64,000 nt of DNA. Source: Microbispora sp. H13382 (GTDB lineage: Bacteria; Actinomycetota; Actinomycetes; Streptosporangiales; Streptosporangiaceae). Location: assembly GCF_014161445.1 (NCBI RefSeq), contig NZ_JABBXA010000027.1, positions 1-64,000 on the forward strand, in the 5' to 3' direction. Under the pieces are notes generated by a model. The model saw only the letters and a list, made by a program, of their open reading frames with translations, was not told the DNA's origin and made no database searches. Below are positions 9,317 to 13,939 of this stretch, in pieces (within the stretch, counting starts at the first letter, position 1; each line of letters begins with the position of its first letter). The position numbers were made by a program, and so were the translations under genes.

Positions 9317-11875
9317 ATGCGGGTGAGCGGTTCGCGTCGTACGCGATGGGCCGAGGGAAAAGGCGGACTGACCCGGCGGACGATCGTGGTGAGCATGCTG
9401 ATCTTGGGCCTCATCAGCGGCGCCTTCGCGTTCCTCCTGCCGGCGATTTCGGGTCTTCGTGAGGCGGTGCATCTCACAAACCACTCCAGGCATGTGCTGA
9501 CGACCGCGAACCACCTCCATAGGCTCGTCATCGACCTTGAGACCGGTCAGCGGGGGTTCGTCATCGCCGGAGACGAGAGCTTCCTGCAACCATGGAGACA
9601 AGCCCGTGCCTCCATCCCCGAGCAGGCGGCCACCCTGGAGCGGCTCGCAAGCGCCCAGAGCGCCGCGCAGGGAGACCGGGCGCGCCAGATCAAGCAGTCC
9701 GTCGAGGCCTACATCCGTGACTATTCGGTGCCGACCGTGGAGGCCGCGCGGCGAGATCCGGCATCCGCCCGAACCGTGGCGGTGACGGAAGAAGGAAAGC
9801 GCCGTGTCGACGCGATCAGGGGTCAATTCGAGCGCTTCGTGAATTTTGAGAATCAACTTCTCGCGTCGCGGCAAGAGCGTGCCGCCGATGCCGCTGTCCG
9901 GGCCACCGCGGCGACGTCGGTCGGTGTAGCGGGATCGATCCTGCTCATCCTTCTCTTCGACACCTACCTGATCCGGTCGATCGTCCGGCCGGTCCGCAAA
10001 GCGGCCGCCGTCGCTTCCCGGCTCGCCGACGGAGACCTCACGGCGCGCATGCCCGAAACCGGTGCGGGCGAGATCGGCAAGCTCGAAGTCGCGTTCAACA
10101 GCATGGGGCGCTCGCTGGAGGAGAGCCGCGAGCTGACCGAGAAGGCGCACAGGCGCCTCAAACTGCTGTACGACGCCAGCACGGCGGTGGGCACCACCCT
10201 CGATGTGAGGCGGACCGCGGAAGAACTGGTGAAGGTAGTGGTCCCTGAGTTCGCCGACTTCGTCACGGTCGACCTGGCGGTGGCTGTCCTGCGGGGCGAT
10301 GACCACCGGCCGGACGAGGGCGAGATGCTGTGCCGGGTGGCCATCGGATGCATTCGGAACACCGGGTCGTTCCACCCGCCCGGCGTGCTGATCACGTGGG
10401 CCCCGCCCACGCCTCAGGCCCGCAGTTTCGACGGTGGCCTCGCCCTGCTCGAACCCGATCTGCGGGCTTCCACCGCGTGGCGGTCCCGGGATCCGGAAGC
10501 GGCCGCTCGGATCCTGGACCACGGCATCCATTCCCTGATCACGACCCCGCTACGTGCCCGGGGGGTGCGGATGGGCGTCGTCAGCTTCTGGCGCTCGCGT
10601 CAGCCCGGGCGATTCGACGAGGAGGACCTGTCCTACGCGGTGGAGCTGACCGCCAAGGCGGGCGTCGTCATCGACAACGCCCGCCGTTACGCCCATGAAC
10701 GCAATACCGCGCTGACTCTGCAGCGCAATCTGCTGCCCCAGCGGCTGCCCGTGCAGCCGGCGGTGGAGATCGCCTTCCGTTATCAGCCGGCGGGCGCGCA
10801 GACCGGGGTGGGGGGCGACTGGTTCGACGTGATCCCGCTGTCCGGCTGCCGGGTCGCCCTCGTCGTCGGGGACGTCGTCGGCCACGGCATCCACGCCGCC
10901 GCCACCATGGGCCGGCTGCGCACCGCCGTACGCACCCTGGCCGACGTCGACCTGCCGCCTGACGAGCTCCTCACCCACCTGGACGACCTGGTCATCCACC
11001 TCACCAGCGGCGAACAGCCCGGTATGGCGGAAGGCGACACGGCCGCGTTCGCCGAGCTGGGCGCCACGTGCCTGTACGCCGTCTACGACCCCGTCTCACG
11101 CAGATGCACCTTGGCCACCGCCGGTCACCCGCTGCCTGTTCTGCTCACTCCCGACGGCACCACGGAACTGGTGCGCGGCCCGGTCGGCCCTCCTCTCGGC
11201 GTCGGCGGCCTGCCCTTCGAAACCACCGAGCTGCGCTTGACCGAGGGCACCGTCATCGCCCTGTTCACCGACGGCCTGGTCGAGACCCGCGACCGTGACA
11301 TCGACCAGGGCCTCGCCGAGCTGCGCCGTGCCCTGGCGCTGCCGACGGCGTCACTGGAAGACATCTGCGACACCGTGACCGGCGCCCTGCTCGACGGCCG
11401 CGCGGCTGACGACGCGGCCCTTCTCCTCGCACGCACCGAAGCCCTCTCCCCGGACCAGGTCGCCATGTGGGAGGTCCCCGCTGACCCGGCCCTGGTCGCG
11501 CGCACCAGGAAGCTCGCCATCGACCAGCTCCTCGTATGGGGACTGGACGAAATGGAGTTCGTCACCGGCCTCGTGGTGAGCGAGCTCGTCACCAACGCCA
11601 TGCGCCACGGGACCGGCCCGATCCAGCTGCGACTGATCCGCGACCGCACACTGATCTGCGAGGTCTCGGACGGCAGCAACACCGCACCGCATCTGCGCCG
11701 GGCCCGCGTCTTCGACGAGGGAGGGCGCGGACTGCTGCTGGTCGCACAGCTCACGCAGGGCTGGGGCACGAGGCAGACGACCAGTGGCAAGACCATCTGG
11801 TGCGAACAGGCCCTGCCTCCCCCCGTGCCGAGCTCAGACGGGGCACCCGGCGACGAAGTCTCCAGGGCGGCATGA
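9317..11875 (+). CDS. Membrane stress phosphatase: CHASE3-HAMP-GAF-PP2C(SpoIIE)-HATPase
   Basis: This 852-residue protein joins a sensor to both halves of an anti-sigma switch. Residues about 20-45 and 195-215 are membrane helices enclosing a CHASE3-like extracellular domain. HAMP follows at about 215-270, then a GAF domain at about 285-455. A SpoIIE/RsbU-type PP2C phosphatase spans about 465-700, with metal-binding motifs GGDWFDV, VGDVVGHG, FTDGLVETRD and DDAALLL. A C-terminal RsbW-like HATPase spans about 715-830, with the N-box in SELVTNAMRHG. Known relatives dephosphorylate anti-anti-sigma factors, while the HATPase part can phosphorylate or bind them. No sigma factor or antagonist lies next to it, so its partner is elsewhere. 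The ATG at 9317 follows ACGAGG. Confidence 0.92.
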   Translation: MRVSGSRRTRWAEGKGGLTRRTIVVSMLILGLISGAFAFLLPAISGLREAVHLTNHSRHVLTTANHLHRLVIDLETGQRGFVIAGDESFLQPWRQARASIPEQAATLERLASAQSAAQGDRARQIKQSVEAYIRDYSVPTVEAARRDPASARTVAVTEEGKRRVDAIRGQFERFVNFENQLLASRQERAADAAVRATAATSVGVAGSILLILLFDTYLIRSIVRPVRKAAAVASRLADGDLTARMPETGAGEIGKLEVAFNSMGRSLEESRELTEKAHRRLKLLYDASTAVGTTLDVRRTAEELVKVVVPEFADFVTVDLAVAVLRGDDHRPDEGEMLCRVAIGCIRNTGSFHPPGVLITWAPPTPQARSFDGGLALLEPDLRASTAWRSRDPEAAARILDHGIHSLITTPLRARGVRMGVVSFWRSRQPGRFDEEDLSYAVELTAKAGVVIDNARRYAHERNTALTLQRNLLPQRLPVQPAVEIAFRYQPAGAQTGVGGDWFDVIPLSGCRVALVVGDVVGHGIHAAATMGRLRTAVRTLADVDLPPDELLTHLDDLVIHLTSGEQPGMAEGDTAAFAELGATCLYAVYDPVSRRCTLATAGHPLPVLLTPDGTTELVRGPVGPPLGVGGLPFETTELRLTEGTVIALFTDGLVETRDRDIDQGLAELRRALALPTASLEDICDTVTGALLDGRAADDAALLLARTEALSPDQVAMWEVPADPALVARTRKLAIDQLLVWGLDEMEFVTGLVVSELVTNAMRHGTGPIQLRLIRDRTLICEVSDGSNTAPHLRRARVFDEGGRGLLLVAQLTQGWGTRQTTSGKTIWCEQALPPPVPSSDGAPGDEVSRAA

Positions 11876-11909: not shown

Positions 11910-12452
11910 TCAGTCGCGTACGGGCCTGCGGCGGGCGGCGTACGCGCGGGCCTTGGCCCGGTTGCCGCAGACGCTCATGGTGCACCAGCGCCGGGTGCGG
12001 CTGCGGGTGCCGTCCCAGAACACCCACTCACACGAGTGATCCGGGCACATCTTGAGGCGCCGCCACTCCCCGTTGGCCACGACCAGGGCCCAGGCGGCGC
12101 CGATCGAGGCAAGCGGACCCTCGCCCATCAGCGGGTCGCCGGGCTCCGATGCCGCCCCCAGCCGTACTCGGAGGGGCAGCGCATCCAGCACGGTCTGCGC
12201 CTGACCGATGGCCCGGGCCGCTTCCGGGGTGTCGGGAGCGCCGATGTTGTTGGTCAGCAGGCGCGCGCGCAGACCGGCGCGCAACGCGATCGCCTGCGTG
12301 TGCGTCCGTTCGTCCACGTCGCCGGTCAGCCCTCGATCGCGTGCCCAGGTCGTCAGCCCCTCCATCGTGGCGATCGCGTCCGTGCCGTCTTCGACGTCGA
12401 TCGTGTTGGCGAAGTCACGGATCAGCGCCGCGTGGGCCGACGGGTCTGTCAT
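11910..12452 (-). CDS. CGNR zinc-finger (ABATE-type) regulator
   Basis: This 180-residue protein has the two-part layout of CGNR proteins: an N-terminal helical ABATE domain and a C-terminal zinc finger with CPDHSC, then WCTMSVCGNRAKARA (four metal-binding cysteines). The family is presumed to bind DNA. The start is taken at the ATG at 12452 (MTDPSAHAAL). A longer frame to 12491 would run into the first operator-like palindrome and is less likely. It is divergent from an MFS exporter, and the 224-base space between them holds four similar palindromes, so it probably controls itself and the exporter. Confidence 0.85.
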   Translation of the reverse strand: MTDPSAHAALIRDFANTIDVEDGTDAIATMEGLTTWARDRGLTGDVDERTHTQAIALRAGLRARLLTNNIGAPDTPEAARAIGQAQTVLDALPLRVRLGAASEPGDPLMGEGPLASIGAAWALVVANGEWRRLKMCPDHSCEWVFWDGTRSRTRRWCTMSVCGNRAKARAYAARRRPVRD

Positions 12453-12487
12453 CGCTCTGCTCGTTCCTTCGGGGCCTGCGCCGTATT

Positions 12488-12507
12488 CCATCTACCAGGA
12501 TAGATGG
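12488..12507. promoter_or_regulatory. Operator-like palindrome 1 (CCATCTA-N6-TAGATGG)
   Basis: Perfect seven-base arms with a six-base spacer, 36 bases upstream of the CGNR start. It is the first of four related sites in the CGNR/MFS intergenic region. Its start lies 31 bases before that of site 2, about three helical turns. Confidence 0.6.
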
Positions 12508-12518
12508 CCGAAATCTCA

Positions 12519-12538
12519 CCACCTACCACCATAGACGG
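12519..12538. promoter_or_regulatory. Operator-like palindrome 2 (degenerate)
   Basis: CCACCTA-N6-TAGACGG, a weaker copy of the same motif with mismatched arms but the same six-base spacer. It is 31 bases from site 1, on the CGNR side of the intergenic region. Confidence 0.45.
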
Positions 12539-12614
12539 GTAGAAATCGACTGCACGGGTGGGCGTGGGCGGCCGGCTCCGGGGTCGCGGATCCGCCTGGT
12601 CACCTCGACTGGTT

Positions 12615-12634
12615 CCATCTATCGGGATAGCTGG
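12615..12634. promoter_or_regulatory. Operator-like palindrome 3
   Basis: CCATCTA-N6-TAGCTGG has one mismatch against the perfect site. It lies on the MFS side and again 31 bases before the next copy (site 4). The sequence right after it (GGTTAATAT) is locally AT-rich and could contain the MFS -10 region. Confidence 0.55.
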
Positions 12635-12641
12635 TTAATAT

Positions 12642-12669
12642 CCAACCATCTAAGGTGATAGATGGTTGG
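12642..12669. promoter_or_regulatory. Operator-like palindrome 4, long form overlapping the MFS leader
   Basis: Perfect 11-base arms (CCAACCATCTA and its complement) flank a six-base spacer, making this the strongest of the four sites. It abuts the ribosome site of the MFS gene (GGAGG at 12668-12672), so binding here would block transcription of the exporter. Confidence 0.65.
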
Positions 12670-12676
12670 AGGTGGC

Positions 12677-13939
12677 GTGGCTGTGACGGTGACACGGGGT
12701 GCACCGCGAAACCGGGCGAGCCGCCGGAACGAGACCGTGCTGGTGGGCTTCACCGCGGTCACCAATCTGGCCGACGGCGTGGTGAAGATCACGCTTCCCA
12801 TGCTCGCCGTGGCGGTGGGTGGCTCCGTGGGGCAGGTGGCGGGGGTGGGGCTCACGCTCACGCTGCCATGGCTGCTGGCGTCGCTCCCGGTGGGCGTGCT
12901 CGCCGACCGGACCGATCGCCGCCGGCTGGTGGTCGTCGCGAACCTGCTCCGGCTGGCGGCCGTCGCCGCGCTGTTCGTCGCGGTGCTCGCCATGGGCACG
13001 GCCGGGCCGCCGTTGCTGCCGGTTCTGTACGCCGTGGGGCTCGTGGTCGGCCTCGCCGAGGTGGTGGCCAACACCGCCGTCGGCGCCGTCGTTCCCGCGG
13101 CCGTCCCGGCGGAGCGCCGGCCCAAAGTCAACGCCTGGATCGCGGGGGTGGAGACGCTCGCCAACGAATTCTGCGGGCCGGCGGTGGGGGGCCTGCTCGT
13201 CGGCGTCGGGGCCGGCGTCGCGCTCGGCTCCACCGTCGCCGGGTTCGCCGCCGGTGCGATGCTGATGACCCTGCTGGCCGGCCGGTTCCGGCCCTCAGCC
13301 GGGACGGGGCCGCGTGAGGAGCACGTGAGCCGGGCGAGCCTCGTCGCCGACGTCCGCGAGGGACTGGCCTTCCTGTGGCGCCATCGGCTGCTGCGCACCC
13401 TTTCGCTGACGATCGCCGTCCTGGCGGGATGCTGGAGCGCCTGGCTCGCCCTACTGCCGTCCTACGCGGCGTCCGTACTGGAGCTGGACTCGGCCGGGTA
13501 CGGCCTGCTGGTCAGTGCCATCGGCGTGGGCGGCCTCGTCGGCGCCGTGCTCACGTCGGCGGTCAACCGACTGCTCGGGGTGCGCTGGGCGCTGTTCGCC
13601 GACCTCGTCGGCACGTTCCTGATGATGGCCGTGCCCGCGCTGCTCCCGGCCGCATGGACGGTCGGCGCCGCCGCCTTCGTCGGCGGCATGGGCGGAACCC
13701 TGTGGACGGTGAACGCGCGGACCATATCCCAGGCGCTTGTTCCCGACCGGCTCCTCGGCAGGTACGGCGCCGCCGCGCGCCTGCTCGGCTGGGGCACCCT
13801 TCCACTCGGCGCCGCCCTGGCCGGGCTCCTCGCCGAGGCATTCGGTCTTCACCTGGCGTTCGCCGTGTTCGCCCTGGCGGTCGCCGCGCTCACCGTGCCC
13901 TTCCTGCGCACCGTCACCCCTGCCGAGCTGGCGGCCTGA
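12677..13939 (+). CDS. MFS transporter, probable drug or siderophore exporter
   Basis: This protein of about 420 residues has twelve predicted membrane helices. The MFS loop motif GVLADRTDRRRL follows helix 2, and overall layout resembles EntS/MefA-type exporters. GGAGG at 12668-12672 points to a GTG start at 12677 or 12683. An in-frame ATG at 12662 lies inside the palindrome and has no site before it. The divergent CGNR regulator and the four palindromes suggest drug- or metabolite-inducible expression. The substrate is unknown. Confidence 0.88.
   Translation: MAVTVTRGAPRNRASRRNETVLVGFTAVTNLADGVVKITLPMLAVAVGGSVGQVAGVGLTLTLPWLLASLPVGVLADRTDRRRLVVVANLLRLAAVAALFVAVLAMGTAGPPLLPVLYAVGLVVGLAEVVANTAVGAVVPAAVPAERRPKVNAWIAGVETLANEFCGPAVGGLLVGVGAGVALGSTVAGFAAGAMLMTLLAGRFRPSAGTGPREEHVSRASLVADVREGLAFLWRHRLLRTLSLTIAVLAGCWSAWLALLPSYAASVLELDSAGYGLLVSAIGVGGLVGAVLTSAVNRLLGVRWALFADLVGTFLMMAVPALLPAAWTVGAAAFVGGMGGTLWTVNARTISQALVPDRLLGRYGAAARLLGWGTLPLGAALAGLLAEAFGLHLAFAVFALAVAALTVPFLRTVTPAELAA

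Follow-up and report, generated by a model that had tools for sequence, protein, structure and literature searches.

The window, a stretch of 64,000 nt from Microbispora sp. H13382, carries a divergent pair of genes encoding an ABATE-CGNR regulator (nt 11910–12452, reverse strand) and an exporter of the major facilitator superfamily (MFS; nt 12683–13939, forward strand). The regulator is a protein of 180 residues, and both of its domains (PF07336 and PF11706) score above the curated Pfam cut-offs: zf-CGNR at 62.3 bits against 24 (E 3.7e-17), and ABATE at 32.1 bits against 24.4. The CGNR motif is present, and in an alignment of 14 sequences that includes the window protein, cysteines C136, C141, C157 and C162 are invariant, as are the finger residues R132, K134, W156, T158, M159 and G163. 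The predicted structure (pLDDT 83.9) has a single PDB match at E ≤ 0.001, Jann_2411 (3h0n; Foldseek E 3.4e-5, TM 0.54), and the zinc-finger part also aligns with that protein by sequence (E 4.9e-6). The exporter matches MFS_1 (PF07690) with 92.3 bits against a cut-off of 33.4. Its score for TIGR00900 (2A0121, an H+ antiporter subfamily) is 150.4 bits, under the cut-off of 319.6, and as it lies under the NCBIfam cut-offs for all eight families listed, it is classed only as MFS. A large adjoining gene (nt 9317–11875) has CHASE3, HAMP, SpoIIE phosphatase, HATPase and weak GAF domains, and its product is likely to be a signalling protein.

The likelier start codons, judged from the sequence, are the ATG at 12452 for the regulator and the GTG at 12683 (or that at 12677) for the exporter. 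The ATG at 12662 and an in-frame upstream ATG at 12491 both fall within operator arms (described below), and the GTG starts of the MFS gene are preceded by GGAGG at 12668–12672. The same start layout is seen in the closest relative (L017). The operators nearest to the two genes sit just upstream of the likely ribosome-binding site of each. A scan of nt 12400–12760 for sigma-70 promoters and terminators found no promoter consensus and no terminator.

Four copies of an inverted repeat, CCATCTA-N6-TAGATGG, lie between the two genes. A pattern search of the window placed them at 12488, 12519, 12615 and 12646, with 0, 2, 1 and 0 mismatches, respectively, and with start-to-start distances of 31, 96 and 31 bp, in agreement with an earlier note on this DNA that had described two pairs of sites with 31 bases between starts. 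The perfect site A1 (12488–12507) is centred about 46 bp upstream of the regulator start and, like the single-mismatch site B1 (12615–12634), has a counterpart in L017. Site A2 (12519–12538) is the one with two mismatches. Site B2 (core 12646–12665) directly adjoins the GGAGG that precedes the MFS start and has longer arms, TCCAACCATCTA/TAGATGGTTGGA, that extend over 12641–12670; they measure 12 bp and not the 11 bases that had been noted. At three or fewer mismatches, the window holds only these four matches, against 0.34 expected and a maximum of 2 in 100 shuffles. Throughout the 8.7-Mb genome, they are also the only matches with up to two mismatches. When three mismatches were allowed, one strand of the genome gave 42 matches in all, compared with 98 for a reversed control pattern, and the additional matches look like chance.

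Orthologous loci were found at 52–97% identity of the CGNR protein in other genomes of the same family. Twelve of these (L017–L028, of which L019 and L020 are nearly alike) were compared with the window. In all 12, an MFS orthologue lies divergent beside the CGNR gene, and at least one site (four or fewer mismatches) is found upstream of the CGNR gene. A pair of sites 30–32 bp apart occurs in 10 of the 12, the distance being exactly 31 bp in eight; the exceptions are L027, with a pair at 55 bp, and L028, with a single site. The motif is thus conserved upstream of the orthologous pairs, which is the check that the earlier note had proposed. By eye, the letters linking the paired sites vary while their spacing is constant. 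In L017, the closest relative, three sites are spaced by 32 and 30 bp, and a stretch of about 97 bp that holds site A2 (approximately nt 12514–12610 of the window) is missing. Because pairs recur in the relatives while L017 does not have this stretch, one pair is the conserved unit, and the array of four, although its sites are real, is a layout particular to this genome among those compared. The stretch itself is G+C-rich and splits the operator array relative to L017; a search for its origin elsewhere in the genome returned only its own copy.

Inverted ACC...GGT half-sites were noticed by eye in most upstream regions of distant CGNR genes, and this was the initial lead. A motif-free scan for exact 6 bp dyads, in which the redundancy filter was faulty and which serves as a lead only, gave GTTACC as the commonest arm at a gap of 17 bp (10 times). 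For a systematic count, 213 loci (L016–L228) were taken from the window's family and phylum, from named records of several groups, and from the classes of a Bosea genome and a Neptuniibacter genome. A CGNR protein was present in 206, of which 199 had at least 200 bp of upstream sequence and an alignable start, and clustering at <70% identity left 132 regions; this step also removed contigs that had been reached twice (L018/L046, L027/L048 and L028/L047). The group searches covered sampled genomes, and their matches were fetched in part (30 loci plus 20 regions for the family, 30 loci plus 60 regions for the phylum). Ten further regions, read for a widespread paralogue, are outside every count of 132.

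Dyads of the form NACC-gap-GGTN′, in which the fourth base is matched, were strongly enriched in the 132 regions at two ranges of gap length. A gap of 17 bp was seen 36 times, against 3.1 expected from shuffles (z 19), and gaps of 18 and 19 bp occurred 26 and 19 times (z 11.5 and 9), with about 3 expected. The second range, near one helical turn, comprises gaps of 8 (21 times, z 10), 9 (12, z 4.8) and 10 bp (9, z 3.2). All remaining gaps from 3 to 40 bp had z values of 2.4 or less (including 8 cases at gap 13, 7 at gap 38 and 6 at gap 16), and the outward-facing control, NGGT..ACCN, showed no comparable peak in the same regions, its highest count being 10. At least one strict dyad with a gap of 16–19 bp is found in 66 of the 132 regions (shuffles: mean 11.6, maximum 19), and two or more in 18 (shuffles: 0.6, maximum 3). 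The other 66 regions are without a strict 16–19 dyad, and 57 of the 132 have neither gap class in their last 200 nt; some of these CGNR genes could be internal to operons, or their half-sites could have diverged. At the window locus, the definition (gaps of 8–9 or 16–19 bp) is matched by site B2 (AACC-N16-GGTT), and no other site of the four fits the strict rule. The remaining three preserve the distance of CC..GG, but their outer base is weaker.

The enrichment was also present in a held-out set of 91 loci, all fetched after the motif had been conceived and sharing less than 60% identity with the first set as well as among themselves. Dyads with gaps of 16–19 bp occurred in 44 of these (7.7 expected, maximum 16) and those with gaps of 8–9 bp in 18 (4.4 expected, maximum 10), while gaps of 10–13, 20–23 and 24–27 bp gave 12, 7 and 9, compared with about 8 expected for each. 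Upstream regions of TetR genes served as a further control (28 of 30 loci, two shorter ones being dropped). Gaps of 16–19 bp were found in 1 of 28 TetR regions against 66 of 132 CGNR regions, and gaps of 8–10 bp in 3 of 28 against 34 of 132, so that the control is weaker for the one-turn class. Within this class, four loci (L065, L073, L149 and L157, with L149 coming from the window's own genome) carry GTAACC-N9-GGTTAC, which is a long palindrome, or a sequence close to it.

The consensus half-site of the two-turn dyads is TAACC-N-g-t-N-A-A, and that of the window clade is ACC-a-T-C-T-A. The half-site of the window, ACCATCTA, is compatible with that of the family, TAACCNGTNAA, and the invariance of the finger residues agrees with the invariant core of the half-site. 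From these sequence comparisons, the 20-mer of the window is best read as one form of an operator, inverted (T)AACC...GGTT(A), that is found before many CGNR genes. The recurrence of the pattern before very different CGNR members suggests that it is a general, testable DNA target of the family. In twenty regions examined for neighbouring genes, the six most readable divergent neighbours were of five kinds: a flavodoxin-fold reductase, an alpha/beta hydrolase, two proteins of glyoxalase type, an acyl-CoA dehydrogenase-like protein and an EamA transporter. Since the operator is shared by five kinds of neighbour, the common factor is the CGNR gene.

Gap length follows the CGNR protein tree. With 73 rows labelled by a simple rule, some of whose labels are doubtful (it gave two members of the window clade, L025 and L026, a gap of 8 and left the window locus unlabelled), the gap label required 19 changes on the tree, compared with 43.2 when shuffled (minimum 37), and the one-turn or two-turn label required 8, compared with 17.0 (minimum 12). 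Part of this agreement may come from DNA relatedness, though the proteins are less than 70% identical. The window clade has a gap of 16 bp. Elsewhere among the actinobacterial regions, gaps of 17 and 18 bp predominate, and in the Bosea class the upstream regions have gaps of 8–9, 17, 18 and 19 bp. One part of the tree has mostly gaps of 8–9 bp and includes two members with a gap of 19 bp (L131 and L200).

The spacing of paired dyads differs between groups as well, with clusters at about 30, 37–42, 46 and 51 bp across CGNR regions. A widespread CGNR paralogue provides an example: in 8 of 10 loci read (L303–L310), it is preceded by a pair 38–39 bp apart, made up of ACACC-N17-GGTGT (with one mismatch in two loci) and AACC-N17-GGTT, and of the remaining two, L302 has one site and L311 one strict site. 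Loci of the L038 type share an operator pair of this style, and G000 C16 is probably the copy of the paralogue in the window genome. As the pair spacings are not all whole turns, cooperation on the same face of the helix is no general rule. The three-turn spacing, which the earlier note had taken to suggest cooperative binding by an oligomer, therefore stands for the window clade, at 31 bp, where that reading is plausible, but it does not extend to other CGNR regions, which space their pairs differently.

Taken as a whole, it is probable that the four sites are operators of the adjacent ABATE-CGNR protein, that a dimer of this protein represses its own gene and the MFS gene until a ligand releases it, and that the half-site is used across the family. 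We infer that each of the dimer's two zinc fingers, which are C-terminal, would contact one half-site, (A)ACC-N-K-Y-N-A, with the two ACC/GGT centres about two helical turns apart (ACC-N16-GGT at this locus). At a spacing of 31 bp, two such dimers would occupy the region around each start, and dimers near both starts would block transcription of the regulator and of the exporter. A ligand, possibly an exported compound, would then bind the ABATE domain and cause the dimers to be released. The same half-site, at a spacing of one turn (gap 8–9) or two turns (16–19), would probably serve as the general operator of the family. The wider form of this proposal is also probable: ABATE-CGNR proteins across Actinomycetota and Proteobacteria would recognise one half-site, (T)AACC-N-G/T-Y-N-A-A, in inverted copies separated by N8–9 or N16–19 and often in tandem, with the gap and the pair spacing fixed within each clade.

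Operators at a start region usually block transcription. Since both genes of the window have their nearest sites next to the start region or overlapping it, it is unlikely that the CGNR protein activates the MFS gene instead. Activation would draw some support from the position of the dyads in the family at large, as half of the two-turn dyads are found between 72 and 132 bp ahead of the aligned start of the CGNR gene (median 104).

A different DNA-binding protein encoded elsewhere, for example one of TetR or PadR type, might bind the sites and have the CGNR gene as merely one of its targets. The loci that bear on this are orthologues of the MFS gene, of which 30 were fetched, 16 with a CGNR gene inside the fetched flanks and 14 without (L261, L263–L266, L270, L272–L276, L279, L283 and L287). 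The 20-mer, at three or fewer mismatches, is found at 11 of the 16 loci with a CGNR gene (the window and the orthologous loci included) and at none of the 14 without, which favours a partnership between the CGNR protein and the 16-gap form of the operator. The five CGNR-bearing loci without the 20-mer (L282, L284–L286 and L288) belong to the most distantly related of the MFS loci. The 14 loci without an adjacent CGNR gene keep a single dyad, ACC-N17-GGT, at the MFS start (strict in 10, recognised by eye in the other four), and because this dyad is present there with no CGNR gene beside it, it is possible that a CGNR protein acting in trans, or a different regulator, binds it. By eye, the ORF adjoining the MFS gene in four of these loci (L261, L263, L272 and L279) looks PadR-like, a point in favour of a foreign regulator.

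Thirteen of the 14 genomes concerned (all except G234) were examined for a possible binder. Each encodes 7–16 CGNR proteins, so that a CGNR protein is available in trans in all of them. In 12 of the 13, the contig with the MFS gene carries no CGNR gene; in G218 it does, at a distance of more than 600 kb. Genome-wide searches with the matching pattern gave a match at the MFS gene in 12 of the 13 and one extra site, in G118; the pattern was absent from G025. No CGNR gene elsewhere in these 13 genomes was found to bear the operator of the MFS gene, and the most widespread CGNR of these relatives has operators of its own that differ from it. Against a foreign regulator as the general binder, the dyad accompanies CGNR genes whatever the neighbourhood or organism, and gap length tracks the tree of the CGNR proteins. 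Binding by a foreign protein is accordingly judged to be improbable.

It is very improbable that the inverted repeats function as RNA hairpins in 5′ leaders, either as attenuators or by masking a ribosome-binding site. The 12 bp arms at 12641–12670 would indeed form a strong hairpin immediately ahead of the ribosome-binding site of the MFS gene, but sites are present on both sides of the intergenic region and at differing distances from the starts, and what is kept across the family is the letters and their spacing (ACC/GGT at a fixed gap), while the inner bases are often unpaired. A chance or mobile repeat is next to impossible, as it is contradicted by the shuffles, the genome search, the relatives, the held-out test and the single-copy stretch, and nothing was found in its support.

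If the CGNR protein is the binder, the locus resembles an ordinary divergent pair of regulator and exporter. In systems of the TetR/MarR type, a local regulator controls its own gene and a divergent exporter through a shared inverted-repeat operator, and the window likewise has a local regulator, a divergent MFS gene and inverted-repeat operators at both starts. It differs in that the DNA-binding domain of CGNR proteins is a treble-clef zinc finger rather than a helix-turn-helix, and in that the half-sites are about two turns apart and often form tandem pairs.

The ABATE and CGNR domains of Jann_2411 have been described from its structure, with DNA binding, a likely dimer and a ligand being suggested (PMC2954205). 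The available parts of that paper give no DNA target, whereas the window locus proposes one. A PDB sequence search for the CGNR family returned this one member and no complex with DNA. The literature found, which includes few subscription papers or preprints, has the 2009 structure as its sole paper on the family; other publications that mention CGNR members provide names only and, in the text available, no DNA target. The earlier remark that the targets of CGNR proteins are little described agrees with this, as no target for any of them appears in the literature found, and the operator class is new to that literature.

CGNR proteins are frequent in certain groups. The genome of Microbispora sp. 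H13382 encodes seven, and matches were found in 69 of 198 sampled genomes of its phylum, in 28 of 190 genomes of the class of the Bosea genome, but in only 4 of 229 (two of them over the cut-off) of the class of the Neptuniibacter genome. The window locus links one CGNR regulator to a likely exporter. If the proposed reading is correct, it would make the operator code of this family, for which the literature found has no DNA target, readable, and the operators and targets of many CGNR regulators would become predictable from sequence.
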